Positions 46,178 to 61,866 of a stretch of DNA of 64,000 nucleotides are shown in pieces. The first letter of the stretch is position 1; every line of letters starts with the position of its first letter. Source of the DNA: Tolypothrix bouteillei VB521301 (GTDB lineage: Bacteria > Cyanobacteriota > Cyanobacteriia > Cyanobacteriales > Nostocaceae); NCBI RefSeq assembly GCF_000760695.4, contig NZ_JHEG04000001.1, positions 8,159,123 to 8,223,122 on the forward strand, given 5' to 3'. The position numbers and the translations under genes were made by a program. The notes beneath the pieces were generated by a model. The model was not told where the DNA came from and did not search any database. It saw only the letters and a list, made by a program, of their open reading frames with translations.

Positions 46178-46735
46178 ATGACTGTCATTGACGGTACTTC
46201 TGGAAACGATACACTTTACGGGACTGAATTTGCGGATAGCATCTACGCTTACGGAGGGGATGATACTGTTTACGCTTATGCGGGAGACGATACCGTTTAC
46301 GCTGGTGCTGGCAACGATTACATTGACGGATTAGATGGCAACGACACCATTTATGGTGAAGCTGGTAACGATACGTTACTAGGTTACAACGGTAATGACT
46401 TCCTCAGTGGTGGTAGTGGGAATGACACCATTTATGGTGAAGCAGGCGATGACACCATAGTTGGCGGTTATGGCCAAGATACACTCTGGGGAGGTGCTGG
46501 AGCAGATAAATTTGTCTTCAACAACTTGTATGAAGGCATTGACGTTATCAAAGACTTCGAGTGGACTGAAGGAGACAAAATTCTGGTTTCCGAGGCTGGA
46601 TTTGGTGCTTGGTCTAATAACGACTTTAGCTATGACAGCTCAACTGGTGGTTTGTTCTTCCTTAATGTTCAGTTTGCCACGATTGAAAACAAACCTGCTG
46701 CTTTCTCTACCAATCTTGATATTCAACTCGTCTAA
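46178..46735 (+). CDS. RTX (haemolysin-type calcium-binding repeat) protein
   Basis: The protein has 185 residues. GGxGxDxxx nonapeptide repeats fill residues 8-110 (for example YGGDDTVYA, GAGNDYIDG, LDGNDTIYG, GSGNDTIYG, GGAGADKFVF). They form a calcium-bound beta-roll. The tail (FVFNNLYEGIDVIKDFEWTEGDKIL broken as GIDVIKDF and EGDKILVS) is the peptidase-M10-like C-terminal cap common in type I-secreted proteins. There is no N-terminal signal. Secretion through an HlyB/D/TolC-type machine is expected for the class. The ATG follows AGGAG. It lies 2.2 kb from the exported-protein array, but the exporter there has a double-glycine peptidase, so it is probably not its own exporter. Confidence 0.9.
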   Translation: MTVIDGTSGNDTLYGTEFADSIYAYGGDDTVYAYAGDDTVYAGAGNDYIDGLDGNDTIYGEAGNDTLLGYNGNDFLSGGSGNDTIYGEAGDDTIVGGYGQDTLWGGAGADKFVFNNLYEGIDVIKDFEWTEGDKILVSEAGFGAWSNNDFSYDSSTGGLFFLNVQFATIENKPAAFSTNLDIQLV

Positions 46736-46968: not shown

Positions 46969-48403
46969 ATGTTTGTTCGCTACTGCTCAAACGCATCTGA
47001 AAATACTGTCGGTACAAATTACAACGAGGTTGTACTTGATTGCCAGAAAGTTTTACTAATCCCATACTTTGTAACTGATAAGCGGATATAGGTTCTATTT
47101 GTACGGGATGAGTTGTATCAATCACTTGTTGAAAAGCAGCTGCTAATTTGGGACGTTCTTGCAAATCTAACCAATATTTCCATAAATGAGGGCGGTAAAT
47201 ACCAGCTTCAGTCGGTGCTTCCGCTAAAAGTCGATCTACTGTTATCTCCGGATGACCTTTAAGATGAGCAAAAGCTAATTCTAGCAGGTAGGGGTGCCCT
47301 CCTAATAATTCCATTAATTGTACAACTGAATTTGTAGCCATTTCAAGCCCGTGTTGCTGAGACAATGCTAAGACTTGCTCTTGAGTAAACTCAGTCAACT
47401 CAATGGGTAACCCGACATTAAAGGGGGATTGATTAATATTGAGTTGAATGTAAACGTCTGTTGAATGTAGGATAGCTAATCGTAGTTTTTGCCAAAGCCT
47501 GCGACTTCTTGCCTTTTCATACCAAGAACGCAATAACCCAAAAAAGTCTTCGTAAATTTCAGGATAGGGAAAAAGTAAATCCACATCATCCAAACAAAGC
47601 ACAAGGGGGTTTTCCAGTTCAGTTAAGAGATACTCCTCAAAATACGTTGTACAACTGACTTTAGAACCCATACCTTCTTCATCCCAATATTCATCCAATT
47701 CTGTAGGTAACCGAAGTTCGCGACTAATATTTATGCAAAACCAACGCAAGAACTTATTCAGGTTAGTGAAATGTATGCTCCGATCTGCCAGTTTAAAACT
47801 CAAGTAAACAACATGATAATCTTCTTGTTCTGTCACTTGACTCAAAACTCTGGTCATCAAGTATGTTTTCCCCATGAGACTCGGGGCTTTGATCCGAATG
47901 AGAGAACCTGGTTGTAAAAGATGTTCGTAGCAGAGCGCTTCTATAGGAGGACGCTCCACATAAACTTCCATTTGTGCAACTTCGTTCCTCCCTGCTTGAC
48001 TGCGTTCTTGGTGAATTTGCGTATTTTGTTCTAGATAGTCTTCTCGATCGCTAGCAATGTTTCTAGAAGTCTGTTTGTTCTCTTTTTTTCTTGCTGAGAC
48101 TGGTAAATCTTGATTGACTGCACCGTAAGATGGTTTCTCCCAATACCTTTTTAAAGCTTCCTTAAAATTACTTTTCTTAACTTTTTCTCCCAAAGCATCA
48201 CTTAATAGTTTCCAAAACTTGGGCGCTACATCCTGACTAATGTAAGTTGTAGCATATTGTTGTTTGGCAGCAATTGTGTCATAATCCTCACGGTTCCACG
48301 CTCCCTTCAAAATTACAATTTCAAGATCTGTTAATTTTCTGTTGAATTTTGAATGTATAACTTGATTAGCCGTTTCAATAGCTTCGTTTAAATTAAATTC
48401 CAT
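46967..48403 (-). CDS. vMAP-type N-terminal domain plus AAA-like ATPase
   Basis: The protein has 478 residues. The first 90 residues (MEFNLNEAIETANQVIHSKF, LTDLEIVILKGAWNRED, YATTYISQDVAPKFWKLLSDALG in part) match the helix-turn-helix-like N-terminal domain of cyanobacterial vWA-MoxR-associated proteins. A charged linker (100-150) leads to a P-loop NTPase: Walker A IKAPSLMGKTYLM, Walker B VLCLDDVDLLF, then LRLAILHSTDVYI and a helical lid (LSQQHGLEM, LLGGHPYLLELAFAHL). Such AAA-like (PF14516-type) proteins are thought to be signalling NTPases fused to effectors; here there is no effector domain. It is not obviously linked to the exported-protein array 0.5 kb away. Confidence 0.85.
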   Translation of the reverse strand: MEFNLNEAIETANQVIHSKFNRKLTDLEIVILKGAWNREDYDTIAAKQQYATTYISQDVAPKFWKLLSDALGEKVKKSNFKEALKRYWEKPSYGAVNQDLPVSARKKENKQTSRNIASDREDYLEQNTQIHQERSQAGRNEVAQMEVYVERPPIEALCYEHLLQPGSLIRIKAPSLMGKTYLMTRVLSQVTEQEDYHVVYLSFKLADRSIHFTNLNKFLRWFCINISRELRLPTELDEYWDEEGMGSKVSCTTYFEEYLLTELENPLVLCLDDVDLLFPYPEIYEDFFGLLRSWYEKARSRRLWQKLRLAILHSTDVYIQLNINQSPFNVGLPIELTEFTQEQVLALSQQHGLEMATNSVVQLMELLGGHPYLLELAFAHLKGHPEITVDRLLAEAPTEAGIYRPHLWKYWLDLQERPKLAAAFQQVIDTTHPVQIEPISAYQLQSMGLVKLSGNQVQPRCNLYRQYFQMRLSSSEQT

Positions 48404-48740
48404 AGTTCGTTTGAAAATAAGAATTTTTATCGCCAGAGCAGATATAGCTACAAGAGCTTGGGTTGATAACGCAATACTAGTGTTACATATAGCAATCTTA
48501 GTGGTTCACCGCATTAATTCTGATGAGTCAACCAATTTTTCCTCTCTTGTTCCGGTAGCTGAGCCTGGGAATACCTCCTTTGGCAGTTCCGCCTCCTGTA
48601 CTGCGAGGCGGAGCCTCGCGTAATGCATTCCTAGGCTGAGCCTAGGAACGAGAGAAACGAGAGAATGACAACTCAGTCCTACTCTGCACAATTAATGCGA
48701 TAAACCCATAGGTTTTAAAGCTCAAATTGGGAGGCTAATC
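48404..48740. other. Spacer between the AAA gene and the array, mostly repeat DNA
   Basis: After about 130 bp of AT-rich promoter-like DNA for the AAA gene, a dispersed palindromic element (48543-48660) fills the middle. The last 80 bp lead into the upstream block of the exported-protein array. Confidence 0.55.
48543..48660. repeat. GTTCCC-type dispersed palindromic repeat, copy 2
   Basis: It begins TTGTTCCGGTAGCTGAGCCTGGGAA, shown here by TGAGCCTGGGAA. Perfect palindromes GCGAGGC GGA GCCTCGC (48603-48619) and TTCCTAGGCT G AGCCTAGGAA (48628-48648) follow, ending ACGAGAG. It shares its layout with 33 kb and 63 kb elements. Confidence 0.75.
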
Positions 48741-48920
48741 TGAATTTACCTGAATTTCCTGACTTTTTCTAACCTGTTGGAATAGAAATTAATTTAGACA
48801 CTCCTGAATTTAGCTAAACTCTTTTCCAAAAGCATAAATCATACTAACAATAGAAAGCAACAAACAAGCTTTCCAACAAAAAAACTAAAAACTCAAACCA
48901 GAAAAATTAAGGAGTCAAAA
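48739..48920 (+). promoter_or_regulatory. Upstream block A of the array (duplicated before the exporter gene)
   Basis: CCTGAATTTCCTGACTTTTT, then AACCT, a second CTGAATTTAGCTAAACT, then AATCATACTAACAATAGAAAGC as the lead-in to the first stem-loop (GAAAGC at 48853-48858, GCTTTC at 48868-48873). The block at 52491-52617 matches it in the same order with few changes. AAGGAG sits 8 nt before the first start. It probably contains the promoter and 5' untranslated region; no transcription start is known. Confidence 0.6.
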
Positions 48921-49316
48921 ATGTCTACTTCTATTTCTCAAGCACAACTGTTTACTGAAATGACTGCAGAAGAAGGAGCAACCCTCAGCGGTGGAACCAC
49001 TCAAGTTAATCTCAAATATTTTCAAATCTACGACACTCAAGAATGGCCTCAAGATGAACCTTACTTAAAAGTTGATGGCAAAACAATTTGGTCTAAAGAT
49101 GGTGCTGGTGTTGGCATTCATACTGTGAACAAAAGATTCAATATCAGTGGTACCTCTGATACACTGTCTCTTTGGGAAAACGATTCTTGGCCAAGTAATG
49201 ATGAATTTTTAGGAGAAAACAAAATCTATTCTTGGCAAAGAGGAACAGATTTGGAACTCTCTTTCACCAGGGAAGGCGCTAATTACAAACTTGTCTACGA
49301 TGTTTACTCTGTTTAA
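48921..49316 (+). CDS. Double-glycine-leader exported protein, isoform A, copy 1
   Basis: The protein has 131 residues. Residues 1-25 form a class II-type leader: MTAEEGATLSGG at -12 to -1, with Glu at -8, Leu at -4, Gly-Gly at -2/-1, and Met at the -12 hydrophobic position. The mature 106 residues start TTQVNLKYF, have no Cys, and carry DEPYLKVDGKTIW and LWENDSWPSNDEFLG, which resemble the strand pair and acidic loop of C2 domains. The predicted product is a beta-sandwich protein, released by the C39 exporter encoded at 52687. It differs from copies 2 and 3 of isoform A by one silent change (Ser23 AGC/AGT). AAGGAG lies 8 nt before the start. A bacteriocin, an adhesin and a calcium-binding surface protein are all possible. 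Confidence 0.8.
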   Translation: MSTSISQAQLFTEMTAEEGATLSGGTTQVNLKYFQIYDTQEWPQDEPYLKVDGKTIWSKDGAGVGIHTVNKRFNISGTSDTLSLWENDSWPSNDEFLGENKIYSWQRGTDLELSFTREGANYKLVYDVYSV

Positions 49317-49396
49317 AGTAGGTTAATTTCTAGTTTCTCAAGCCATCAACTTACTAGAGTAAATTCTACACAACCAATTCTCAAACATACTAACGC

Positions 49397-49418
49397 TGGA
49401 AAGCTAACAGGCTTTCCA
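49397..49418 (+). promoter_or_regulatory. Inter-gene stem-loop preceding isoform B copy 1
   Basis: TGGAAAGC TAACAG GCTTTCCA, an 8-bp perfect stem, preceded by CATACTAACGC. Equivalent stem-loops lie at 49940-49961, 50482-50503, 51025-51046 and 51567-51588. Shorter versions lie at 48853-48873 and 52595-52617. So all seven genes have one, 45-70 nt before the start codon. None has a U-tract. Confidence 0.75.
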
Positions 49419-49463
49419 ACGAAAAACCCAAAAACTCAAACCAGAAAAATTAAGGAGTCAAAA

Positions 49464-49859
49464 ATGTCTACTTCTATTTCTCAAGCACAACTGTTTACTG
49501 AAATGACTGCAGAAGAAGGAGCAACCCTCAGTGGTGGAACTGCCCGAGTTAACCTCAAATATTTTCAAATCTACGACACGCAAGAATGGCCTCGAGATGA
49601 ACCTTACTTAAAAGTTGATGGCAAAACGATTTGGTCTAAAGATGGTGCTGGTGTTGGTTATCATGATGTTGGCAAAACATTTGATATCAGTGGTACCTCT
49701 GATACACTGTCTCTTTGGGAAAATGATTCTTGGCCAAGTAATGATGAATTTTTAGGAGAAAACAAAATTTATTCTTGGCAAAGAGGAACAGATTTGGAAC
49801 TCTCTTTCACTAGGGAAGGCGCTAATTACAAACTTGTCTATGATGTTTACTCTGTTTAA
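49464..49859 (+). CDS. Double-glycine-leader exported protein, isoform B, copy 1
   Basis: The leader (1-25) is identical to isoform A, and there are eight differences in the mature part: A27, R28, R44, Y66, D68, G70, T72 and D74. Five of them are alternate residues in one segment (GYHDVGKTFDIS against GIHTVNKRFNIS), while the residues between (H67, V69, K71, F73, I75) are unchanged. This is what a beta-strand with one exposed, varying face would show. The remaining mature sequence, including the acidic NDSWPSNDEFLG loop, is unchanged. The net charge differs only slightly. The same ribosome-binding site precedes the start. Confidence 0.8.
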   Translation: MSTSISQAQLFTEMTAEEGATLSGGTARVNLKYFQIYDTQEWPRDEPYLKVDGKTIWSKDGAGVGYHDVGKTFDISGTSDTLSLWENDSWPSNDEFLGENKIYSWQRGTDLELSFTREGANYKLVYDVYSV

Positions 49860-50005
49860 AGTAGGTTAATTTCTAGTTTCTCAAGCCATCAACTTACTAG
49901 AGTAAATTCTACACAACCAATTCTCAAATATACTAACGCTGGAAAGCTAACAGGCTTTCCAACAAAAACTCAAAAACTCAAACCAAAACAATTAAGGAGT
50001 CAAAA

Positions 50006-50401
50006 ATGTCTACTTCTATTTCTCAAGCACAACTGTTTACTGAAATGACTGCAGAAGAAGGAGCAACCCTCAGTGGTGGAACCACTCAAGTTAATCTCAA
50101 ATATTTTCAAATCTACGACACTCAAGAATGGCCTCAAGATGAACCTTACTTAAAAGTTGATGGCAAAACAATTTGGTCTAAAGATGGTGCTGGTGTTGGC
50201 ATTCATACTGTGAACAAAAGATTCAATATCAGTGGTACCTCTGATACACTGTCTCTTTGGGAAAACGATTCTTGGCCAAGTAATGATGAATTTTTAGGAG
50301 AAAACAAAATCTATTCTTGGCAAAGAGGAACAGATTTGGAACTCTCTTTCACCAGGGAAGGCGCTAATTACAAACTTGTCTACGATGTTTACTCTGTTTA
50401 A
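50006..50401 (+). CDS. Double-glycine-leader exported protein, isoform A, copy 2
   Basis: It encodes a protein identical to copy 1 of isoform A. Its upstream spacer differs slightly from that of the B genes (AATATACTAACGC and CAAAACAATTAAGGAG). It sits exactly 1085 bp after copy 1, and together with the following B gene forms the second dimer. Confidence 0.8.
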   Translation: MSTSISQAQLFTEMTAEEGATLSGGTTQVNLKYFQIYDTQEWPQDEPYLKVDGKTIWSKDGAGVGIHTVNKRFNISGTSDTLSLWENDSWPSNDEFLGENKIYSWQRGTDLELSFTREGANYKLVYDVYSV

Positions 50402-50548
50402 AGTAGGTTAATTTCTAGTTTCTCAAGCCATCAACTTACTAGAGTAAATTCTACACAACCAATTCTCAAACATACTAACGCTGGAAAGCTAACAGGCTTT
50501 CCAACGAAAAACCCAAAAACTCAAACCAGAAAAATTAAGGAGTCAAAA

Positions 50549-50944
50549 ATGTCTACTTCTATTTCTCAAGCACAACTGTTTACTGAAATGACTGCAGAAG
50601 AAGGAGCAACCCTCAGTGGTGGAACTGCCCGAGTTAACCTCAAATATTTTCAAATCTACGACACGCAAGAATGGCCTCGAGATGAACCTTACTTAAAAGT
50701 TGATGGCAAAACGATTTGGTCTAAAGATGGTGCTGGTGTTGGTTATCATGATGTTGGCAAAACATTTGATATCAGTGGTACCTCTGATACACTGTCTCTT
50801 TGGGAAAATGATTCTTGGCCAAGTAATGATGAATTTTTAGGAGAAAACAAAATTTATTCTTGGCAAAGAGGAACAGATTTGGAACTCTCTTTCACTAGGG
50901 AAGGCGCTAATTACAAACTTGTCTATGATGTTTACTCTGTTTAA
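50549..50944 (+). CDS. Double-glycine-leader exported protein, isoform B, copy 2
   Basis: It encodes a protein identical to B copy 1 and sits 1085 bp after it. By eye I see no nucleotide differences from B copy 1 in the coding region, so the duplication is recent or kept uniform by gene conversion. Confidence 0.8.
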   Translation: MSTSISQAQLFTEMTAEEGATLSGGTARVNLKYFQIYDTQEWPRDEPYLKVDGKTIWSKDGAGVGYHDVGKTFDISGTSDTLSLWENDSWPSNDEFLGENKIYSWQRGTDLELSFTREGANYKLVYDVYSV

Positions 50945-51090
50945 AGTAGGTTAATTTCTAGTTTCTCAAGCCATCAACTTACTAGAGTAAATTCTACACA
51001 ACCAATTCTCAAATATACTAACGCTGGAAAGCTAACAGGCTTTCCAACAAAAACTCAAAAACTCAAACCAAAACAATTAAGGAGTCAAAA

Positions 51091-51486
51091 ATGTCTACTT
51101 CTATTTCTCAAGCACAACTGTTTACTGAAATGACTGCAGAAGAAGGAGCAACCCTCAGTGGTGGAACCACTCAAGTTAATCTCAAATATTTTCAAATCTA
51201 CGACACTCAAGAATGGCCTCAAGATGAACCTTACTTAAAAGTTGATGGCAAAACAATTTGGTCTAAAGATGGTGCTGGTGTTGGCATTCATACTGTGAAC
51301 AAAAGATTCAATATCAGTGGTACCTCTGATACACTGTCTCTTTGGGAAAACGATTCTTGGCCAAGTAATGATGAATTTTTAGGAGAAAACAAAATCTATT
51401 CTTGGCAAAGAGGAACAGATTTGGAACTCTCTTTCACCAGGGAAGGCGCTAATTACAAACTTGTCTACGATGTTTACTCTGTTTAA
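51091..51486 (+). CDS. Double-glycine-leader exported protein, isoform A, copy 3
   Basis: It is identical at protein level to A copies 1 and 2, and by eye at DNA level to copy 2. It is the first half of the third dimer. Confidence 0.8.
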   Translation: MSTSISQAQLFTEMTAEEGATLSGGTTQVNLKYFQIYDTQEWPQDEPYLKVDGKTIWSKDGAGVGIHTVNKRFNISGTSDTLSLWENDSWPSNDEFLGENKIYSWQRGTDLELSFTREGANYKLVYDVYSV

Positions 51487-51633
51487 AGTAGGTTAATTTC
51501 TAGTTTCTCAAGCCATCAACTTACTAGAGTAAATTCTACACAACCAATTCTCAAACATACTAACGCTGGAAAGCTAACAGGCTTTCCAACGAAAAACCCA
51601 AAAACTCAAACCAGAAAAATTAAGGAGTCAAAA

Positions 51634-52029
51634 ATGTCTACTTCTATTTCTCAAGCACAACTGTTTACTGAAATGACTGCAGAAGAAGGAGCAACCCTCA
51701 GTGGTGGAACTGCCCGAGTTAACCTCAAATATTTTCAAATCTACGACACGCAAGAATGGCCTCGAGATGAACCTTACTTAAAAGTTGATGGCAAAACGAT
51801 TTGGTCTAAAGATGGTGCTGGTGTTGGTTATCATGATGTTGGCAAAACATTTGATATCAGTGGTACCTCTGATACACTGTCTCTTTGGGAAAATGATTCT
51901 TGGCCAAGTAATGATGAATTTTTAGGAGAAAACAAAATTTATTCTTGGCAAAGAGGAACAGATTTGGAACTCTCTTTCACTAGGGAAGGCGCTAATTACA
52001 AACTTGTCTATGATGTTTACTCTGTTTAA
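51634..52029 (+). CDS. Double-glycine-leader exported protein, isoform B, copy 3
   Basis: It is identical at protein level to B copies 1 and 2. Sequence similarity to the other units stops right after its stop codon: the usual AGTAGGTTAATTTC trailer is replaced by ATTTAGAACATAACATTGG. This marks the right edge of the amplification. A strong stem-loop follows. Confidence 0.8.
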   Translation: MSTSISQAQLFTEMTAEEGATLSGGTARVNLKYFQIYDTQEWPRDEPYLKVDGKTIWSKDGAGVGYHDVGKTFDISGTSDTLSLWENDSWPSNDEFLGENKIYSWQRGTDLELSFTREGANYKLVYDVYSV

Positions 52030-52057
52030 ATTTAGAACATAACATTGGTGTTTTAAT

Positions 52058-52086
52058 AAACTCGGTATTTGTCCAATACCGGGTTT
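52058..52086 (+). terminator. Strong stem-loop after the array
   Basis: AAACTCGGTATT (52058-52069) pairs with AATACCGGGTTT (52075-52086) across a 5-nt loop, with one G-T wobble. It lies 28 bp after the last array gene. There is no clear U-tract, so it may stabilise the transcript end or stop polymerase with help. Confidence 0.65.
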
Positions 52087-52490
52087 ATCAATCTGTAAAA
52101 TCCACGTAAAAAGTTTTTAATTTTTGTATTTATTTTAACTTAAATATACTGACTCTAGTAGATATCGGCTGAAATCGTGTAACCTTTAGTAATGGCTTAT
52201 ATTACAAGCTTTTGCTTTTTCTGCCATGCTACTTACTGTAGCCTGTGAAACCACGCACAGCAATCGCTCATGGGTAAACTACCCAAGAGCGCGTTGCCTC
52301 ACCACCGCAGTGGCTCCTCCGGACTTCTGCCTTTTTGTACTAAATCCCTACGCACTACTTGTCGAAAAGAGCGTTTTTTTCCTCCCCTGCACAAAGGTGC
52401 AACCCCTGCACCCCTGCTTGTCTCACTCGACAATTTTCTCAGCCCTTGCAGTATTGAATCCCTACGAGGAAGCAGGGCAAACCTAAACTT
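52087..52490. other. 404-bp spacer between array and exporter
   Basis: It contains a repeat element shared with 20137-20154 (CCACCGCAGTGGCTCCTC, at 52302-52319) and short C/T-rich pieces (CCCTGCACAAAGGTGCAACC, AATCCCTACGAGG). Reading frames here are Pro/Ser-rich and not protein-like. Confidence 0.5.
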
Positions 52491-52686
52491 CCCTGAATTT
52501 TCTGACTTTTTCTGACCTATGGAACCAAAAATGAATTGAGCAGCTTCTGAATTTAGCTCAACTTCTATACAAAATTATCAATCATACTAACAATAGAAAG
52601 CAGTCAAAAAGCTTTCTGGCATAGAATTCACAATCTTACCGAAAATTTCCCAAATATTTTTTGGACACCAATACTTATTATCAATT
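52491..52686 (+). promoter_or_regulatory. Upstream block B before the exporter gene
   Basis: CCCTGAATTTTCTGACTTTT, then CTGACCT, CTGAATTTAGCTCAACT and ATCATACTAACAATAGAAAGC, then stem AGAAAGC (52595-52601) and GCTTTCT (52611-52617). The order and most bases match 48751-48873. A shared regulator or common transcript-stability element for array and exporter is the simplest reading. Unlike the array genes, there is no Shine-Dalgarno sequence before the exporter ATG. Confidence 0.6.
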
Positions 52687-54873
52687 ATGAAATATCAAGT
52701 TGTTCTACAACACAGCGAAGAAGACTGCGGTGCTGCTTGTATTGCCAGTATTGCCAAATATTACGGACGTACTTTTGCCATCAGTCGGGTGCGGGAAGCC
52801 GTGGGAACTGGTTCGCGAGGCACTTCTTTACTGGGTTTGAAACGGGGTGCAGACGCACTGGGGTTTAATGCTCGTCAGGTAAAAGCTAATCCTGAAATGC
52901 TTGAGCGTTTAAACGAAGTCCCTTTACCCGCAATTATTCATTGGAAAGGATATCACTGGGTTGTATTGTACGGTCAAAAAGGGAAAAAATACATTGTTGC
53001 TGACCCCAGTCTTGGTATGCGTTACCTCACTCGTAAAGAGTTAATGACGGGTTGGATTAATGGTGTCATGCTCTTGCTAGAACCAGACTACAGCCGTTTT
53101 CTAGAACAACCAGAAGATAAAATTGGTGGTTTTGGACGTTTTCTTGCCCGTACTTGGCCTTATCGCTTTATTCTTGCTCAGGCAATTGGTATTAATATAG
53201 CTATCGGTCTTCTCTCCCTCGCTTCTCCCTTAATGATGCAGTTACTAACTGATGATGTGTTGGTGAGGGGAGATACTCAATTGCTAACAACGGTGGCAAT
53301 TGGGGTTATTACTATGAATTTTATTAGGAGCGCGATCGCATTAGTACAATCCCACCTCATCGGTCACTTTGGTCAGCGCTTGCAATTCGGGTTAATTTTA
53401 GAATACGGACGCAAACTTTTACACTTACCCCTGTCATATTTTGAAGGGCGTCGCAGTGGGGAAGTTGTCAGCCGCATTTCTGATGTCAATGCCATCAATG
53501 CTCTTGTATCCCAAATTGTTCTCGGTTTACCCAGCCAATTCTTTATCGCTGTGGTTTCCTTGGGAATTATGCTGTTCTACAGTTGGCAACTATCCATAGC
53601 TTCCTTTGTTGCATTTCTTATCTTGACTTGCATTAATCTGCTTTTTGTCCCAATGATGCGGAATAAAACCCGCAAATCTATCGTTTTACGAACAGAAAAT
53701 CAAGGTTTTCTTGTAGAAACTTTTCGTGGCGTCCAAGTGCTAAAAACAACCCAAGCAACTCCCCAAGCGTGGGAAGAGTATCAAACAAATTACGGTCGCC
53801 TTGCAAACCTAGGGTGGAGTACGATGAAACTGGGGTTATACAGTGGTACTATCACCAGTCTGATTTCCACATTCACCAATATTGCCTTACTTTGGATAGG
53901 AAGTTATTTAGTTATCAACCATACCCTAACCATTGGTCAACTCTTAATGTTCAATGGTATGAGCGGTAACTTTCTCGGTTTCTTAAGTTCGGCAATTGGC
54001 TTAGTTGATAAATTTATTACCGCACAAGTTGTTATTCAGCGCCTGACAGAAGTTATTGACGCCACTGCAGAAGACGAAAACGACTTCAAAAAACCGTGGG
54101 TTCAAATTCCCAGTAATGCAGATATCACTTGCACCAACCTCAACTTCCACCATGCGGGTAGAGTAGACCTACTGCAAGACTTTTCTCTCACTATCCCCGG
54201 CGGTCAAGTCATTGCTTTAGTTGGTAAATCAGGTTGTGGCAAAAGCACTTTAGCTAAATTAATAACTGCTTTATATCAGACTCAATCGGGTAATGTCTCT
54301 TATGGCATATACAACCAACAAGACCTATCTTTAGAATGCTTGCGACAGCAAATCGTTCTCGTACCTCAAGAAGCACACTTTTGGAGCCGCTCAATTATTG
54401 ACAACTTCCGCTTCAGTTATCCCAACATTACTTTTGAACAAATTGTACAAGCTTGCCAAATTGCTGGTGCAGATGAATTTATCAACAAACTACCTGATAA
54501 ATATCAAACAGTTTTAGGAGAATTTGGGGCAAATCTTTCCGGCGGACAAAAGCAAAGATTGGCTATAGCTAGAGCAATAGCAACCGATCCCCCCGTACTT
54601 ATTTTAGATGAATCAACTGGTGCTCTTGACCCAGTTAGCGAAGCCGAAGTATTAGATAAACTGTTACACCACCGACGCGGTAAAACCACAATTACGATCA
54701 GCCATCGCCCCAAAGTCATTGAAAGATCTGATTGGATTGTAGTCCTCGAACAAGGTCGCTTAAAAATCCAAGGAACTCCAGAATACCTCCGACAAATCCC
54801 TGGCGAACACCTACACTTCCTAGAAGATGTTAGCACTCAAAGGTCATTGTTAGCAGCGATCGGCGAGCAGTAA
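52687..54873 (+). CDS. C39 peptidase-containing ABC exporter (PCAT)
   Basis: The protein has 728 residues. The N-terminal C39 peptidase (1-135) has Q8, C14 (EEDCGAACIAS), H90 (GYHWVVLYG) and D106 (ADPSLG), the complete oxyanion-triad set, so it should cleave after Gly-Gly. A six-helix ABC membrane domain follows (about 165-430). The nucleotide-binding domain has Walker A GKSGCGKST (513-521), signature LSGGQKQR (617-624), Walker B LILDEST and the switch His (ISHRPK). It should process the leader of the six array proteins and export them, with the HlyD protein downstream and a TolC-type channel elsewhere. There is no Shine-Dalgarno sequence. Confidence 0.95.
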   Translation: MKYQVVLQHSEEDCGAACIASIAKYYGRTFAISRVREAVGTGSRGTSLLGLKRGADALGFNARQVKANPEMLERLNEVPLPAIIHWKGYHWVVLYGQKGKKYIVADPSLGMRYLTRKELMTGWINGVMLLLEPDYSRFLEQPEDKIGGFGRFLARTWPYRFILAQAIGINIAIGLLSLASPLMMQLLTDDVLVRGDTQLLTTVAIGVITMNFIRSAIALVQSHLIGHFGQRLQFGLILEYGRKLLHLPLSYFEGRRSGEVVSRISDVNAINALVSQIVLGLPSQFFIAVVSLGIMLFYSWQLSIASFVAFLILTCINLLFVPMMRNKTRKSIVLRTENQGFLVETFRGVQVLKTTQATPQAWEEYQTNYGRLANLGWSTMKLGLYSGTITSLISTFTNIALLWIGSYLVINHTLTIGQLLMFNGMSGNFLGFLSSAIGLVDKFITAQVVIQRLTEVIDATAEDENDFKKPWVQIPSNADITCTNLNFHHAGRVDLLQDFSLTIPGGQVIALVGKSGCGKSTLAKLITALYQTQSGNVSYGIYNQQDLSLECLRQQIVLVPQEAHFWSRSIIDNFRFSYPNITFEQIVQACQIAGADEFINKLPDKYQTVLGEFGANLSGGQKQRLAIARAIATDPPVLILDESTGALDPVSEAEVLDKLLHHRRGKTTITISHRPKVIERSDWIVVLEQGRLKIQGTPEYLRQIPGEHLHFLEDVSTQRSLLAAIGEQ

Positions 54874-54935
54874 ATCTTAGAGTTTTGCTAGTTTCCTACA
54901 GTGTAAAAGCTTGCACAATCCAAAATCTAAAGTCC

Positions 54936-54963
54936 AAAATCTAAAATCTAAAATCTAAAATCT
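54936..54963. repeat. AAAATCT heptamers abutting the hlyD start
   Basis: Four exact AAAATCT heptamers end one base before the ATG at 54965. They occupy the place of a ribosome-binding site; none is visible. Degenerate units extend to about 54917. Confidence 0.8.
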
Positions 54964-54964
54964 T

Positions 54965-56470
54965 ATGATTAGCCACTTCAAATCCGATTCTCTATCCTTC
55001 ACCCAAGAAAACGATTTTCTGCCCCCCATGAGTCGCTGGACAACCTACGGTGGAATGTTCATCTTAGGTGTCATATGTTTAGCAGTTCCAGTTGCTTCTG
55101 TTAGTAAATATAAAGAGGTTGTTAAAACAGAAGCTGTTATCCGTCCAGCAGGTGAACTGCGAATTGTTCAAGCAGCAACAGAAGGTCAAATTATAGGAAT
55201 TTCAGTTCAAGAAAATCAACCTATTAAAAAAGGAGATGTTATAGCCACTATTGACGACTCCCGCCTGCAAACTAAAAAAAGTCAACTGCAAAGCAGTATT
55301 CAACAAGCAAAGTTACAACTTTTTCAAATTAACTCCCAAATTCGCGCTCTCAACAATCAAATCCATGCTGAAACTGACCGTATAAACCGCACTATTGCTT
55401 CTGCTGAAGCTGAACTGAGTGGGCGCGTTCGATCGTACCAAGATAAAAGAATGACTACTGTTGCAGAAGTTCAAGAAGCTGAAGCAAATGTTGGCATCTC
55501 TGAAGAGGATTTACGCAAGGCTCATGCAGAGTTAAGATCGGCGCAAGCAAATTTAAATGCGGCTAGGTCAGCTTTGATAGCTGCACGCTCCAAACAAAAT
55601 CGATATGAAATGGCGGCTAAAGTAGGAGCGCTATCAAAAGACCAGTTAGAAGAAGCACAACTCGCTGCTAGCCAACAAGAACAAGCAGTGGAAGGACACA
55701 AAGCAGCTGTTGAAGCACAAAAACAAACTATTGCTCGCCTCGAACAAGCTGTTTCTGCGTCTATTGCTAGAAGCCAAAAAGTAAAAGTCGCTTTAAATCC
55801 CAGCCAATCAGAAATCGCGATCGCAACAGAACGTATTGCCCAAGAAAAAGCAGCCGGAAAAGCTAGCTTGGCTACATTGGATAAAGAACGCCAAGCTCTG
55901 ATAGCACAAAGGATTGAAGCCCAAAAACAGTTAGATCGCGATGTCCGCGAATTGCAACAAGTGGGAATGGATATCAGACAAACAATTATCACAGCCCCAT
56001 CTGACGGGACTATCTTCAAACTCAGCTTGCGGAACTCCAGTCAAACCGTGCGCTCGGGAGAAGAAATTGCCCAAATTGCTCCGAGCAACTCAAAACTAGT
56101 CGCTAAGAGTTCGGTCAGTGCAGAGGAAGTGAGTAAAGTCAAAGTTGGCCAACAAGTTCACCTGCGGATATCTGCGTGTCCTCATCCAGATTACGGTACT
56201 CTAAAAGGAAAAGTCACAGCTATTTCTCCAGATGCCATCTCCCCTCAAGCCCAAGGTGCTAACTCCAATAGTGGCACTACAGCTAGCAAGATGGTAACGG
56301 GTGGTGCTTTCTACGAGGTTAGTATAGAACCAGAAAACTTGGTGCTAGCTCAAGGCAAAAGTCAATGCCTCATAACTTTGGGCATGCAAGGCAGAGCAGA
56401 TATTATCTCTCGAGAAGAAACTGTATTACAATTCTTCATGAGAAAGGCAAAATTAATTGCTGATTTTTAA
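54965..56470 (+). CDS. HlyD-family periplasmic adaptor (membrane fusion protein)
   Basis: The protein has 501 residues. A short cytosolic N-terminus is followed by one membrane helix (about 26-44, YGGMFILGVICLAVP). The lipoyl half-motif (EGQIIGISVQENQPIKKGD, in part) comes next. A long Ala/Gln/Glu-rich coiled-coil hairpin (about 90-330) follows, then the second lipoyl half (TIITAPSDGTIF) and a beta-barrel domain (VGQQVHLRISACPHPDYG). It links the C39 exporter to an outer-membrane channel. It lies 91 bp downstream of the exporter and is very likely in the same operon. No tolC-like gene is in the window. Confidence 0.93.
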   Translation: MISHFKSDSLSFTQENDFLPPMSRWTTYGGMFILGVICLAVPVASVSKYKEVVKTEAVIRPAGELRIVQAATEGQIIGISVQENQPIKKGDVIATIDDSRLQTKKSQLQSSIQQAKLQLFQINSQIRALNNQIHAETDRINRTIASAEAELSGRVRSYQDKRMTTVAEVQEAEANVGISEEDLRKAHAELRSAQANLNAARSALIAARSKQNRYEMAAKVGALSKDQLEEAQLAASQQEQAVEGHKAAVEAQKQTIARLEQAVSASIARSQKVKVALNPSQSEIAIATERIAQEKAAGKASLATLDKERQALIAQRIEAQKQLDRDVRELQQVGMDIRQTIITAPSDGTIFKLSLRNSSQTVRSGEEIAQIAPSNSKLVAKSSVSAEEVSKVKVGQQVHLRISACPHPDYGTLKGKVTAISPDAISPQAQGANSNSGTTASKMVTGGAFYEVSIEPENLVLAQGKSQCLITLGMQGRADIISREETVLQFFMRKAKLIADF

Positions 56471-56659
56471 AATATTTTGCAGCAATTGTAAGTAGGTAGA
56501 TGGCTTACAGCAATTGCACTACTATTTAATTTGTACGGGTATAGTACGCCTTCAATGCTAAAATCATAATTAAATATACTTGCCATATTGCCAAAGAGTT
56601 GGATTCTTAAAGAAAGTTTTGAGTTGGATTGAGATAGCTATTGTATTTCCTATGAAACT

Positions 56660-59101
56660 ATGCCTAAAGTCCTTAAATATGCGATCGCTTTTACACATAC
56701 ATTAACAGTATGTTTTGTCAATATTGTCTCTGAAAACTGTGTATCGGCTCAGATTAATCCAGATGAAACTTTAGGGTCAGAACGCTCATCGCTCGCGCCA
56801 AATGTTGGAATTAGACAAGGAGTGAGAGGCGATCGCATAGACGGGGGAGCAATACGAGGTAGCAATCTTTTTCATAGTTTTCAAGAATTTAATATTAACG
56901 AAGGGCAAAGAGTTTATTTTAACAATCCCGCAGGAATTACAAACATTATTACTCGAGTCACAGGCACTAAACTCTCAAACATTTTAGGAACATTAGGTGT
57001 CAATGGCAGTGCAAATTTATTTTTCATCAATCCCAATGGGATGATTTTTGGTCAAAATGCCAGATTAGATATCCAAGGGTCATTCATTGCAAGTACTGCT
57101 AGTGGTCTGAACTTTGCCGATAATACGCAATTCAGTGCAACAGCTTCCCAAAACTCTCCCTTGCTAACCGTTAGCGTTCCAATTGGTTTGCAATTTACAA
57201 GCAATTCCCAAGGAATTTTAGTTCGGGGAAATGGTCGAGGTTTAAGGAGACAGGAGAATCCAATCATTGATACAAATAATGCTTTACGCACGCAACCCGA
57301 TCGAACGCTAGCTCTAGTAGGTGGAGATGTCACTTTTGAAGGTGGGACATTGAAAACTGCAGGAGGAAGAATCGAGTTGGGTAGCGTTGCGGGTACTGGT
57401 AATGTCAGTTTGACTGCTGTGCAAAAAGGTTTTTCTTTAGGTTATGAAGGTGTTGCTAATTTTGGAGATATTCAACTGTCCGGAGCCACAGCAATTGATG
57501 CTAGTGGCGAGGGTGGCGGTGAGATTGAAATCAGAGGCAAAAGAGTAGTGCTTCGGGAGGGTTCGCAAATTGAAGCGACTCGCTTGGAAAAGGGCTTTGG
57601 CGGAAAGTTGACCGTAACCGCTTCAGATCTAGTAGAACTCGGCGGGACAACTGCTGACAATCTTGGAGATAACCGACGATTTCCCAGTTCCCTGTCTGTT
57701 GACAATCGAAAAGTCGGGGACATCCCTGGGGAACTGACAATCAACACCAGACAATTGATTATCCGACCGGGAGGACGAATATCAGCTAGCAATGCAGGTC
57801 AAGGAAAGGGAGGCAATATAACGGTCAATGCTGCTGATTCTGTGGAATTGATTGGTATTTTCAACGCCATGGGAGGGCTGCGTTCTAGTGGCATATCCGT
57901 ACAGACAACAGGTTCTGGAGACGCAGGAAATTTAGCTATCAACACTAAAAATTTGGTGATTCGGGATGGAGCAGAACTCTCTGCGTCTACCTTTAGTGCA
58001 GGTAATGGGGGAAGTGTAGAAATCAATGCCTCAGATTCTGTGGAATTGTTCAATACAAACGGGCAAATTCGCAGCAGAATAGTAGCCGAAGTGGGCAGAG
58101 ATTTGAGAGAAGTTAACCGACAGGGAGAATCTGATTCTCCTACGGGACAAGGTGGAAATCTAACAATTAGAACCAGAAACTTGACTGTGAGAGATGGCGC
58201 AGTAGTGACTGTAAGTAGTAGAAGTGAAAATGCTAGAGCTCAAGGTGCAGGTACTTTAGACGTAACAGCTCGATCCGTTCGTTTGGATAATAAAGGACAA
58301 ATTACTGCAGCTACTGCTTCCGGTCAGGGAGGAAATATTACACTACAAGTGCAAGATATCTTGCTTTTACGCCGTAATAGTTTAATATCCACCACAGCAG
58401 GTTCAGCACAAGCAGGAGGAGATGGAGGAAACATTAACATTAATACAAATTTCATCGTAGCTGTCTCCAATGAAAATAGCGATATCACCGCCAATGCTTT
58501 TAGTGGGAGTGGCGGTAATGTGAAAATTACAGCCCAAAGTATTTTTGGGTTAGAACCACGCAGCCGAGAACAACTCCAAACTTTATTGGGAACGAGTCAA
58601 GCTGGCGATACAGATCCGAGTCGGCTGCTCAGTAATGACATCACTGCTATTTCACAAGAAAACCCTTCTTTAAGCGGTCAGATTACCATCAACACGCCTG
58701 ACGTTGACCCTTCCAAAATGTTGGTTGAATTGCCAATGGATATCGTCGATGTCAGTGGATTAATTCGTCAGGACCTTTGTGTTGCAGCCGATCGCGGAAG
58801 TAAATTTACCATAACCGGACGTGGAGGTTTACCTCCTTCTCCTCATGAAACCCTCAATCCTGATGCTGGGTGGGAAGATTGGCGCATCGTACAGCCACAG
58901 GCTTTATCTGAAAAAACAGAGAGTGCAAGAAATTATCAACCAAATTCAAAAGAACTTCAACCTATAAATATTATTGAAGCTCAAGGTTGGGTTATGAGTG
59001 CAAATGGTACGGTGGTTCTCACAGCTCAGCCTGCTGTCGTGACACCTCAAGGAACTTGGCTATCTCCTTTAGATTGTCAGCGGTTGAGGGCAAACTTATG
59101 A
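56660..59101 (+). CDS. Two-partner-secretion-type filamentous haemagglutinin protein
   Basis: The protein has 813 residues. A signal peptide (1-30) is followed by a TPS/haemagglutination domain (about 32-155) with NLFHSFQEFNI, FNNPAGITNIITRVTG in part, and the hallmark FFINPNGMIFG (N124-G127). Then comes a right-handed beta-helix-like repeat region with many GGNI/AGNL-x-INT and VRDGA turns (about 270-640). A C-terminal region with VSGLIRQDLCVAADRGSKF has conserved Cys and is common in cyanobacterial members. It is predicted to be exported across the outer membrane by an FhaC-like partner; none is in the window. The stop overlaps the next start (ATGA). Confidence 0.9.
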   Translation: MPKVLKYAIAFTHTLTVCFVNIVSENCVSAQINPDETLGSERSSLAPNVGIRQGVRGDRIDGGAIRGSNLFHSFQEFNINEGQRVYFNNPAGITNIITRVTGTKLSNILGTLGVNGSANLFFINPNGMIFGQNARLDIQGSFIASTASGLNFADNTQFSATASQNSPLLTVSVPIGLQFTSNSQGILVRGNGRGLRRQENPIIDTNNALRTQPDRTLALVGGDVTFEGGTLKTAGGRIELGSVAGTGNVSLTAVQKGFSLGYEGVANFGDIQLSGATAIDASGEGGGEIEIRGKRVVLREGSQIEATRLEKGFGGKLTVTASDLVELGGTTADNLGDNRRFPSSLSVDNRKVGDIPGELTINTRQLIIRPGGRISASNAGQGKGGNITVNAADSVELIGIFNAMGGLRSSGISVQTTGSGDAGNLAINTKNLVIRDGAELSASTFSAGNGGSVEINASDSVELFNTNGQIRSRIVAEVGRDLREVNRQGESDSPTGQGGNLTIRTRNLTVRDGAVVTVSSRSENARAQGAGTLDVTARSVRLDNKGQITAATASGQGGNITLQVQDILLLRRNSLISTTAGSAQAGGDGGNININTNFIVAVSNENSDITANAFSGSGGNVKITAQSIFGLEPRSREQLQTLLGTSQAGDTDPSRLLSNDITAISQENPSLSGQITINTPDVDPSKMLVELPMDIVDVSGLIRQDLCVAADRGSKFTITGRGGLPPSPHETLNPDAGWEDWRIVQPQALSEKTESARNYQPNSKELQPINIIEAQGWVMSANGTVVLTAQPAVVTPQGTWLSPLDCQRLRANL

Positions 59102-61866
59102 AGTCTAATGAAAAGATTAAAGTTGCTCAGTTACCCAATTTGTTGAAGCAGTTGGGAATTTTGCCGAGCTCTAGGAAGTCACGTATTTTGCAGCTTATTA
59201 ATAAGAACAGAAAAATTCTTCAAATTATTTTGCTTGCGGCTTTAAGCGTCATCTTTAGCCTGCACAGTCCAATATTGTTTTCTGCTATCGCACAGCAACC
59301 TGGAGTCACTCAGCAATCTGCGATCGCATTAATGCAAGCAGGTAAAAAAAACTACGAAGAAGGATTGTTTGCTGAAGCAACAAAAACATTACAACAAGCA
59401 GTACAAATATACGCAGCAACAGGGGAGACTCTCAACCAAGCTCAAGCACTCAGTTTTGCTTCTTTAGCTCAACACAAATTAGGGCAATTTCAAGCAGCAG
59501 AAAATTCTATTCATAATAGTTTATCTTTGTTAAAAAGCTTGCCCGAACGTAAAGATACAATCCAAGTTCGTGCTTTAACTTTGAACGCTCAAGCACATTT
59601 ACAATTGGCTAAAGGCAATGCTGAAACTGCTCTGGAATCTTGGCAAAATGCAGAAAAACTTTACAGGCAAATTCGCGATCGCTTGGGGATTCTTGGGAGT
59701 CTACTCAATCAAGCTTTGGCACTACAAGTTTTAGGTCTTTCCCGTCGCGCCGATCGAACAATTGCTCAAGTAGAACAAGAAATTTATCAAGAAACCGACC
59801 CCTCTTTCAAATTTGCTAGTTTGCTAAATCTCGGTCAAATTCGCCGTCAAGGAAGAGATTTGGAACAATCGCAGAAAATTTTACAGATGGGGCTAGAAGT
59901 AGCTCAAAAAATGCGATCGCCTGAATTTCAAAGTAAAGTTTTATTGAGTTTGGGCAATACTGAAATAGCTCTAGCGAAAAATGCAAAAGCATTAAAAAAT
60001 GAAGAAAATTTTCAGACTTACACTCAGAAAGCTTTAAATGACTATCAACAAGCAGCTAATATTGCCATCTCACAACAGATAAAAGTTCAAGCAAAAATTA
60101 ACCAATTTTCGATATTGCTGGAAAATCAGCAATATTCCTCTTTTCCAGTTTTGCTACCACAAATTAGCAGTTCTTTAGAGAGATTACCTAAGAGCAGATC
60201 TTCCATATATGCACGCGTACATTTTGCCAAAAATTTAATCCAATGGTTACAAGAAAGTAAAGAACCAAAAAACAAAAAGGATATAACTCAAATATTAAAT
60301 ACTGCTATCGATCAAGCTAGAAGTTTAACAGATCGAAGAGCAGAATCATATGCTTTGGGTACGCTTGGTGAGTTATATGAAAAAACTTTAGACGAGTCAA
60401 AGGCAATTGAATTAACTCAATCAGCTTTAGCGATCGCTCAGGCGACAAATGCACCAGATATTGCCTATCGCTGGCAGTGGCAAATGGGGCGGTTGCTTCA
60501 AAAGCAAGCAGAGACAACGCATCGCAGCAAAAATGCTGACGCTCAAGCAGTAAGTTACTACACTCAAGCTTTTAAGACTCTTAATAATTTACGGGGCGAT
60601 TTAGTCGTCCTCAGTCCCGAAGTACAATTTTCCTTCCGAGAAACTGTAGAACCAGTCTACCGACAGTTAGTCGATTTACTTTTGCGAGATCCAAATCCCA
60701 ATCGCGATCGTTTGATTCAAGCCCGTGACGTTATGGAAGCACTCCAGCTAGCAGAACTCGATAACTTTTTTGGCGATGCTTGTGCTAAACCAGAACAAGT
60801 CAAAATTGACGATCTCGATCCCCATGCAGCTGTTATCTATCCAATTATTTTGCCAGACCGTTTGGAAGTGGTTATCAAATTACCAGGCACCGATAACTTA
60901 CGTCATTACGGTCATCAAAATGTTTCTAACACTCAAGTAGACGAAGCAGTCACACGACTGCGACAATCTTTAAAAAGACGCAGCATCAGCCCCAACCAGA
61001 TAAAAAAAGAAGCTCAACAAATTTATAATTGGTTGATTAAACCTTTTGAAACTGAATTAGAAAATACCAAAAATCGAGAGGAAAGCAAGGTAAAAAATTT
61101 GATATTTGTTCTAGATGGTTCGTTGCGTAATTTACCTATGGCAGTTCTCCATGATGGAACAAGATACCTTATAGAAAGATACGCCGTGAGTGTTACTTCT
61201 GGTTTGCAACTGCTCGAACCCAAACCACTTCATAGAGAATCGCTAAGTGTTTTAGTAGGAGGTGCTACAGATGCTCCCAGTTTTGAAAAGGAAGGTTTAG
61301 GAGCCATAAATAATGTAGCGGTAGAACTAGAGGGCGTCAAGCAAAAAGTTCTGCACACTCAAATGTTGGAAAACCAAAAATTTCTCCAACAAAATATCGA
61401 ACAACAAATTAATTCTAAACCCTATAATATCGTTCACTTGGCAACTCACGGGAAATTCAGTTCAAATCCAGAGCAAACTTTCATTTTAGATTGGCAAAAA
61501 CGTATCAAAGTTAAGGATTTTGATAACTTACTGAACCTAGATTTTCAAAGGCGTACTAAACCAATCGAATTACTCATTCTTAGCGCTTGCGAGACAGCTA
61601 CAGGAGACAATCGAGCAGCTTTAGGGCTAGCAGGAGTCGCACTCAAAGCAGGCGCACGCAGTACATTAGCTAGCTTGTGGCAAGTCAATGATGCCTCAAC
61701 TGCTCAATTTATGATTAAGTTATATCAAGAACTGAATAATCCTCAAATCATGAAAGCAGAAGCATTACGAAATGTCCAGCGTGCTTTCCTAACAGAGTTT
61801 TCTAGCACGGATTATAACCGACCTTATCATTGGGCATCGTTTATTCTTGTAGGAAATTGGCTGTAA
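59098..61866 (+). CDS. TPR-CHAT caspase-fold protein
   Basis: I start it at the ATG at 59098, which overlaps the preceding stop (ATGA); the frame upstream lies within the haemagglutinin gene and is not protein-like. The protein has 922 residues. A membrane or signal segment (about 40-65, IILLAALSVIFSLHSPIL) is followed by TPR-like helices (about 70-520). The C-terminal CHAT domain (about 600-922) has H784 (LATHGKF) and C831 (LSACETATG), then GVALKAGARSTLASLWQVND. CHAT proteins are caspase relatives and many are TPR-linked. A role in processing or controlling the secreted partner is inferred from coupling. Confidence 0.92.
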   Translation: MKSNEKIKVAQLPNLLKQLGILPSSRKSRILQLINKNRKILQIILLAALSVIFSLHSPILFSAIAQQPGVTQQSAIALMQAGKKNYEEGLFAEATKTLQQAVQIYAATGETLNQAQALSFASLAQHKLGQFQAAENSIHNSLSLLKSLPERKDTIQVRALTLNAQAHLQLAKGNAETALESWQNAEKLYRQIRDRLGILGSLLNQALALQVLGLSRRADRTIAQVEQEIYQETDPSFKFASLLNLGQIRRQGRDLEQSQKILQMGLEVAQKMRSPEFQSKVLLSLGNTEIALAKNAKALKNEENFQTYTQKALNDYQQAANIAISQQIKVQAKINQFSILLENQQYSSFPVLLPQISSSLERLPKSRSSIYARVHFAKNLIQWLQESKEPKNKKDITQILNTAIDQARSLTDRRAESYALGTLGELYEKTLDESKAIELTQSALAIAQATNAPDIAYRWQWQMGRLLQKQAETTHRSKNADAQAVSYYTQAFKTLNNLRGDLVVLSPEVQFSFRETVEPVYRQLVDLLLRDPNPNRDRLIQARDVMEALQLAELDNFFGDACAKPEQVKIDDLDPHAAVIYPIILPDRLEVVIKLPGTDNLRHYGHQNVSNTQVDEAVTRLRQSLKRRSISPNQIKKEAQQIYNWLIKPFETELENTKNREESKVKNLIFVLDGSLRNLPMAVLHDGTRYLIERYAVSVTSGLQLLEPKPLHRESLSVLVGGATDAPSFEKEGLGAINNVAVELEGVKQKVLHTQMLENQKFLQQNIEQQINSKPYNIVHLATHGKFSSNPEQTFILDWQKRIKVKDFDNLLNLDFQRRTKPIELLILSACETATGDNRAALGLAGVALKAGARSTLASLWQVNDASTAQFMIKLYQELNNPQIMKAEALRNVQRAFLTEFSSTDYNRPYHWASFILVGNWL

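Follow-up and report, generated by a model that had tools for sequence, protein, structure and literature searches.

A cyanobacterial array of double-glycine-leader genes beside a peptidase-containing transporter encodes proteins with a predicted C2 fold

What kind of protein leaves the cell when a peptidase-containing ABC transporter (PCAT) and an HlyD-type adaptor stand behind six genes for 131-residue proteins with a double-glycine (GG) leader? The question was raised by a stretch of 64,000 nucleotides from the filamentous cyanobacterium Tolypothrix bouteillei VB521301 (hereafter the window), which lies within the 9.49-Mb one of the two contigs of this genome (G000) and for which the nearest named proteins were those of Scytonema. 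An initial annotation, made from the letters of the DNA, had proposed a dedicated export system for an unmodified protein, possibly an antagonist, surface component or signal. The genes, the leader, the catalytic residues of the PCAT, the predicted fold of the cargo and an upstream element were established here by computation, and the fold, the element and the alternation of two gene variants go beyond what had been observed before. Our explanation of the whole, to which we assign a probability of roughly 0.55, is that calcium-dependent surface or matrix proteins are exported by a modular PCAT system. The genes concerned are the following open reading frames (ORFs):

48921..49316, + strand: cargo gene 1, variant A, GG leader in codons 1-25 and predicted C2-fold chain 26-131 (ORF, leader sequence, model, fold search)
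49464..49859, + strand: cargo gene 2, variant B (ORF and sequence comparison)
50006..50401, + strand: cargo gene 3, variant A (ORF and sequence comparison)
50549..50944, + strand: cargo gene 4, variant B (ORF and sequence comparison)
51091..51486, + strand: cargo gene 5, variant A (ORF and sequence comparison)
51634..52029, + strand: cargo gene 6, variant B (ORF and sequence comparison)
52687..54873, + strand: PCAT of the short type, C39 peptidase and ABC transporter (Pfam and active-site residues)
54965..56470, + strand: HlyD-type adaptor (HlyD_3, E 8.3e-19)

The six ORFs of 131 amino acids start at 48921, 49464, 50006, 50549, 51091 and 51634, at a spacing of 543 or 542 bp. A reading as six equal copies had to be given up, as the array runs A-B-A-B-A-B with genes 1/3/5 as variant A and genes 2/4/6 as variant B. 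Within the 396 nt of coding DNA at most 1 nt differed among the A copies and none among the B copies, 24 nt differed between A and B (372/396 shared), and spacers of the same kind were identical. Because of this near-identity the array was read as a 1085-bp A-B pair in triplicate, which is either recent or else kept uniform. All eight A/B protein differences were found in the mature part, while the leaders were the same. The leader carries the class II pattern that had been claimed for it (G25/G24 at -1/-2, L22 at -4, E18 at -8). The mature chain (26-131), previously described as about 106 residues, Cys-free and beta-rich, indeed comprises 106 residues with 12.3 kDa, no cysteine, a pI of about 4.6 and an all-beta model. 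Searches of Pfam and NCBIfam with the window cargo gave no match at E 1, and RTX nonapeptide calcium repeats were not detected in it by the Pfam HemolysinCabind model.

The PCAT contains Peptidase_C39 (E 2.1e-35), ABC_membrane and ABC_tran. Its C39 domain starts at residue 2, with no domain before it, and the catalytic set Q8, C14, H90 and D106 is intact at those positions; residues and Pfam domains of transporter and adaptor agree with the earlier description. An N-terminal C39 peptidase with Gln/Cys/His/Asp was found together with transmembrane and nucleotide-binding domains in a single chain, which makes the protein a PCAT. It scored below the cutoffs of bacteriocin_ABC TIGR01193 (407.4 versus 523.85 bits) and NHLM_micro_ABC1 TIGR03796 (413.5 versus 853.3 bits). 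The Gly residues at -1/-2 and the Leu at -4 of the cargo leader would fit the cleavage rule for GG leaders of PCATs. TolC-type outer-membrane genes are located elsewhere in the same genome. As stated in the initial annotation, none of the ORFs between about 43 and 62 kb of the window was recognised as a modification or immunity gene; the Pfam scan covered eight of these ORFs, two of them cargo variants, and not the flanking ones at 43306 and 44573. A second PCAT of this genome (62-63% identity; G000:C1:2736600-2750600, L128) has its own shorter GG-leader genes with mature parts of 55-56 residues.

Modelling of the mature chain predicted an all-beta sandwich of eight strands (pLDDT 94.7), and a structure search with this model gave C2-domain proteins in 50 of the 50 PDB matches listed. 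The C2 topology was found in the predicted model only. The mature chain is most probably a single C2 domain, fold and leader being well supported by model and sequence, respectively, and we consider the export of a C2-fold cargo by the PCAT highly probable. With the C2 domains of PF00168 the cargo shares the predicted eight-strand sandwich, acids in the loops and hydrophobic loop tips; unlike them, it is a bacterial single domain with an export leader and lies below Pfam detection, the best relative reaching 19.3 bits against a gathering score of 22. A C2 domain within a cyanobacterial enzyme is known from syNOS, whose authors call the domain "typically not found in prokaryotes" (PMC12922734).

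Two loops of the model deserve attention. Loop 1 (38-45, DTQEWPQD) connects strands 1 and 2, loop 3 (86-95, ENDSWPSNDE) connects strands 5 and 6, and we take them to correspond in position to calcium loops 1 and 3 of type II C2 domains. In the window protein they present the acids D38, D45, E86, D88 and D94 and have Trp-Pro at both tips. Many C2 domains do without an Asp cluster in these two loops. Among 121 aligned bodies position 45 was acidic in 116/116 and position 86 in 119/120 cases, and acids made up 57%, 38% and 65% of the residues aligned at positions 88, 94 and 95. The five closest sequences were compared (the two window variants and P0003-P0005, with P0006 left out). Loop variation was limited to 38 (Asp/Glu), 44 and 92. 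Along the strand 65-74 all five even positions varied and only one of the five odd ones; further variable places were strand 1 and 76-79. Five of the eight differences between variants A and B (66, 68, 70, 72 and 74) fall on one face of strand 4 and the other three are at 27, 28 and 44, the loops being identical except for residue 44. Synonymous changes in this strand were found at 65, 69 and 73. Such alternation would be expected of a genuine beta strand that buries one side and exposes the other. The alternating positions may represent a diversified face, which could be read as the face that binds a partner; relaxed constraint gives the same alternation, and five sequences are too few to decide.

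How widespread is this cargo? With leader and body together (scan A1), 20 of 388 genomes of the order matched at E 0.01, the own genome included and some matching by the leader only. In scan A2, run at E 1e-5 over 386 genomes taken from the phylum, 11 matched, again including the own one, with one leader-only match. The A1 scan of contigs from named organisms yielded 17 stretches with a pattern match, none of which was confirmed. Among 111 collected proteins 106 showed the GG-leader pattern and 105 matched the body profile, for whose training some of the first 13 of these proteins had been used. One relative (L045) has a signal-peptide-like N-terminus. At the ten fetched loci with GG-leader C2 cargo (window excluded), PCAT and HlyD genes adjoined in six; the idea that homologues always sit beside PCAT genes did not hold. 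A large expansion of GG-leader C2-like paralogues was seen in P0014-P0111 (many from Chamaesiphon, Calothrix and metagenomes), their loop-3 acids often being degenerate. A single chain in L022 (1003-1782) combines a beta/gamma-crystallin domain with a segment that matches the C2-like body profile.

Looking from the side of the transporter, a close PCAT (E 1e-200) was present in 213 of the 388 genomes. Among the matches listed, identities formed two bands of 76-82% and of at most 72%, with the window itself at 100%. The loci fetched were 47 from the upper band, counting the window, and a selection of 17 from the lower one. An HlyD-like gene was found in 45 of the 47 upper-band stretches, the other two of which stop at a contig end; in L109 it stands apart on the opposite strand. 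By pattern, 38 GG-leader ORFs were detected in 22/47 upper-band loci (median mature length 98; at least one match, that in L090, looks like chance) and 23 in 9/17 lower-band loci (median 60). Over all ORFs of up to 400 amino acids these are 61 observed versus 7.2 per shuffle. The remaining 25 of the 47 close-PCAT stretches, some ended by the contig, had no ORF with this pattern. The cargo bodies beside close PCATs (75-82% identity) belong to several unrelated families. C2 cargo accounts for 16 ORFs in 8 loci, six of these ORFs being the window's. A second family comprises 11 ORFs in 9 loci (L037, L080, L082, L093, L094, L095, L103, L110 and L113), without a Pfam match among the members scanned. 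Beta/gamma-crystallin cargo occurs in L042 and weakly in L087, and the L096 cargo has a sub-threshold match to bacterial SH3; further bodies belong to none of these. On a transporter tree of 64 rows built by a quick method, 16 rows were labelled (8 C2, 8 second family; 48 uncounted). The C2 label required 5 changes, at least 3 of them forced by well-supported branches, no fewer than with shuffled labels (216 of 500 shuffles as low). This suggests that cargo was exchanged between transporters and not inherited along with them. From the earlier proposal, a PCAT/HlyD system for an apparently unmodified, Cys-free, beta-rich cargo remained, while a dedicated transporter type was rejected, as the bodies vary beside close relatives of this PCAT.

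An inverted repeat, GAAAGC-N-GCTTTC, precedes all six cargo genes and the PCAT gene. The window contains 7 copies versus 0.06 expected; in the whole genome the pattern occurs at 16 places and its reversal at 1. Cargo genes of other genera are preceded by this block as well, together with a conserved 5' part. A model of the element, R1, was built from ten sites and gave the following positions in the window and one on the second replicon:

48796..48875, + strand: upstream element R1 with GAAAGC...GCTTTC, before cargo gene 1 (82.3 bits, training row)
49354..49418, + strand: upstream element before cargo gene 2 (55.7 bits, training row)
49897..49961, + strand: upstream element before cargo gene 3 (53.4 bits, training row)
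50439..50503, + strand: upstream element before cargo gene 4 (55.7 bits, same score as the gene 2 training row)
50982..51046, + strand: upstream element before cargo gene 5 (53.4 bits, same score as the gene 3 training row)
51524..51588, + strand: upstream element before cargo gene 6 (55.7 bits, same score as the gene 2 training row)
52539..52618, + strand: upstream element before the PCAT gene (84.3 bits, training row)
L165 1501-1974 = G000:C2:211408-211881: orphan GG-leader beta/gamma-crystallin, second replicon (upstream element and Pfam)

At E 1e-3 R1 matched 8 of 388 genomes, and in 5 of them sites exceeded 60 bits. All 11 sites above 60 bits precede a GG-leader gene (by 33-45 nt) or a PCAT (by 68, 72 or 131 nt), 8 of these 11 being training rows of the model itself. 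Two of the three others, one before a PCAT and one before a Cys-rich GG precursor, lie in genome G272, in a locus which also yielded training rows. The third was found in the own genome on contig C2 (454,739 bp), 37 nt before an ORF of 118 amino acids whose leader is LFQELGNEVAAICTGG and whose body is a beta/gamma-crystallin (E 8.2e-13). This orphan passes the gathering score of PF00030 (48.7 versus 25 bits) and carries two motifs of the form N-D-x-x-S-S, NDETSS and NDSISS; no PCAT or HlyD relative was found in the 15 kb surrounding it. A second crystallin of the genome (L180) is leaderless. Below 56 bits 18 sites were obtained, 5 being the window's own, 2 near GG-precursor-like ORFs and 11 not, i.e. 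outside the array 11 of 13 such sites had neither a GG-leader gene nor a PCAT behind them. Rfam gave nothing up to E 1 for window positions 48000-57000. Interpretation as a sigma-70 promoter was discarded, promoter-like sites being fewer than in shuffles (5 versus 8.6), and so was that as a terminator (4 versus 3.1, near chance and all on the minus strand). In the G272 locus (L113, G272:C148; sites L159 and L166) two Cys-rich GG precursors, whose leader we presume to be of a lanthipeptide-like type, have the element in common with a beta-type cargo and a PCAT. The locus may link modified peptides with unmodified domains.

How could such a system work? The C39 domain of the adjacent PCAT would recognise the 25-residue leader and cut after G25, and the 106-residue chain would exit via the PCAT, the HlyD adaptor and a TolC-like channel whose gene lies elsewhere. 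The known substrate of PCAT1 is a precursor of 90 residues whose cargo region is unstructured (PMC6959990), which places the 131-residue precursor not far beyond the range. The mature chain probably folds poorly in the calcium-poor cytoplasm. Once it is outside, its fold would be fixed by Ca2+ bound to D38/D45 and E86/D88/D94, in analogy to C2 loops 1 and 3; this step is proposed because of the analogy to RTX proteins, for which calcium is low in the cytoplasm and high outside (PMC3034196). The Trp-Pro loop tips would then bind a lipid or polymer surface, and the chain would serve as a protein of the sheath, the matrix or the cell surface. The upstream element would tie array, PCAT and the crystallin of the second replicon into one regulon. 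For a calcium-dependent surface function, argued from analogy, we see roughly even chances. More tentatively, the GG leader, in some genomes together with the element, might serve as a shipping label to which C2, beta/gamma-crystallin and other bodies are swapped, PCATs exporting adhesins whose folding is triggered by Ca2+; with a nearly constant calcium end and one diversified strand face, A and B would then differ in partner or self/non-self specificity.

Several observations weigh against this explanation. The window protein did not reach Pfam C2 (PF00168) even at E 1, family profile searches of PDB sequences gave chance-level matches only and no C2 entry, and TM-scores were moderate (0.39-0.64 over the model) with a high Foldseek rmsd. 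Residue 86 is Glu, where C2 domains usually have Asp. Loop-3 acids are lost in many paralogues, the Chamaesiphon type among them, and Ca2+ binding can therefore not be assumed for the whole family. Leaderless relatives (P0011-P0013, L043, L044) indicate that the body also exists without the PCAT export route. Among the ten GG-leader C2-cargo loci, L036, L039 and L040 have neither PCAT nor HlyD nearby, and at L035 the stretch includes HlyD, with a PCAT that contains stop codons lying immediately beyond it. Homologous bodies lacking leaders and exporters had been named beforehand as evidence against the export idea; this was borne out in part, yet 106 of 111 proteins bear a GG-type leader. Strong R1 copies were restricted to 5 of 388 genomes and 5 of the 47 close-PCAT loci (window, L038, L046, L113, L115), and the element is no general mark of these PCATs. 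Since covariation was seen in only 1 of its 7 stem pairs, it was not called a structured RNA.

The gene layout as such is known. Cyanobacterial PCAT/HlyD clusters were classed as putative bacteriocin clusters (Wang 2011, PMC3140520), and the window has the arrangement described there for group III, a short-type PCAT without CAP_ED, HlyD and an array of GG-leader genes. Precursors of 28-164 residues overall and 29-129 in group III were reported. The cargo of those clusters is presented as bacteriocin precursors with a little conserved core, and the parts of that paper available to us name no domain of known fold, in contrast to the predicted C2 domain here. EbfG1-4/PteB of Synechococcus elongatus likewise combine a GG-leader gene array with a C39 transporter (PMC4997328); mass spectrometry peptides of EbfG fit processing after GG, and matrix and surface were given as its location (PMC4997328, PMC9981879). 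By these descriptions mature EbfG differs from the window cargo in size (6-7 versus 12.3 kDa), in having no known domain and in three amyloid-forming members. RTX type I secretion resembles the proposed route in unfolded export with Ca2+-driven folding outside (PMC3034196), while the window cargo has no RTX repeats and uses an N-terminal leader with a C39 transporter in place of an uncleaved C-terminal signal. C2 or crystallin domains as PCAT cargo were not found in the literature as searched by titles and abstract openings, with few subscription journals covered. What is already on record (PMC3140520) is the layout, along with GG-leader genes reaching 164 residues; the cargo with its predicted C2 fold is new.

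Which role, then, for the exported chain? C2-fold bacteriocins that attack the membranes of rival cells, with export as self-protection, would agree with the published classification of such clusters, and C2 tips with Trp could insert into membranes. The precursors at L159 and L166, which have the element in common with a PCAT, resemble Cys-rich precursors of the lanthipeptide type. We regard this as unlikely, given that no immunity gene was recognised nearby, that the chain is an acidic single C2-like domain to which no toxic part is attached and that, in the reports at hand, every cyanobacterial GG protein whose role was tested belongs to the matrix (PMC4997328, PMC9981879). In a structural or amyloid-like matrix protein the C2-shaped sandwich would be a stable scaffold without calcium binding, a solution suggested by the amyloid-forming EbfG1-3 (PMC9981879) and by the many paralogues devoid of loop-3 acids. 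Both loops are, however, strongly conserved among the window protein and the sequences closest to it, and the upstream element also precedes a second type of cargo, a crystallin with two N-D-x-x-S-S motifs. Beta/gamma-crystallins are a family known for Ca2+ binding. We judge this scaffold a little less probable still than the bacteriocin. A secreted signal read by neighbours in the manner of quorum peptides is very improbable: Gram-positive PCATs do export signalling peptides (PMC10986499) and two variants could be two words, but the product is a stable domain of 106 residues from six gene copies, and ORF listing and Pfam revealed no adjacent receptor or regulator. Among the three roles named in the initial annotation, antagonist and signal gained no positive evidence, and a matrix or surface role is favoured by the analogy with EbfG and by the predicted fold.

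Further genes border the locus. A small RTX-repeat protein of calcium-binding secreted type (46178-46735, 185 residues, HemolysinCabind E 1.2e-43) is encoded 2 kb upstream of the array, and a gene for an exoprotein with a TPS (two-partner secretion) domain and a TPR-CHAT gene (56660-61866) follow directly downstream of the adaptor gene.

The C2 domain, familiar from animals and plants as a module for calcium and membranes, counts as typically eukaryotic and usually intracellular, and a cyanobacterial family of single C2-fold proteins with export leaders would depart from that. If such proteins are indeed the cargo, PCATs would ship whole folded domains, beyond short antibiotic peptides, and many C39 clusters now labelled as bacteriocin exporters would have to be re-annotated. 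In some genomes the cis-element would be a pointer to unlinked cargo genes. For the organisms themselves, the finding would suggest a Ca2+-dependent building of the cyanobacterial sheath or biofilm.

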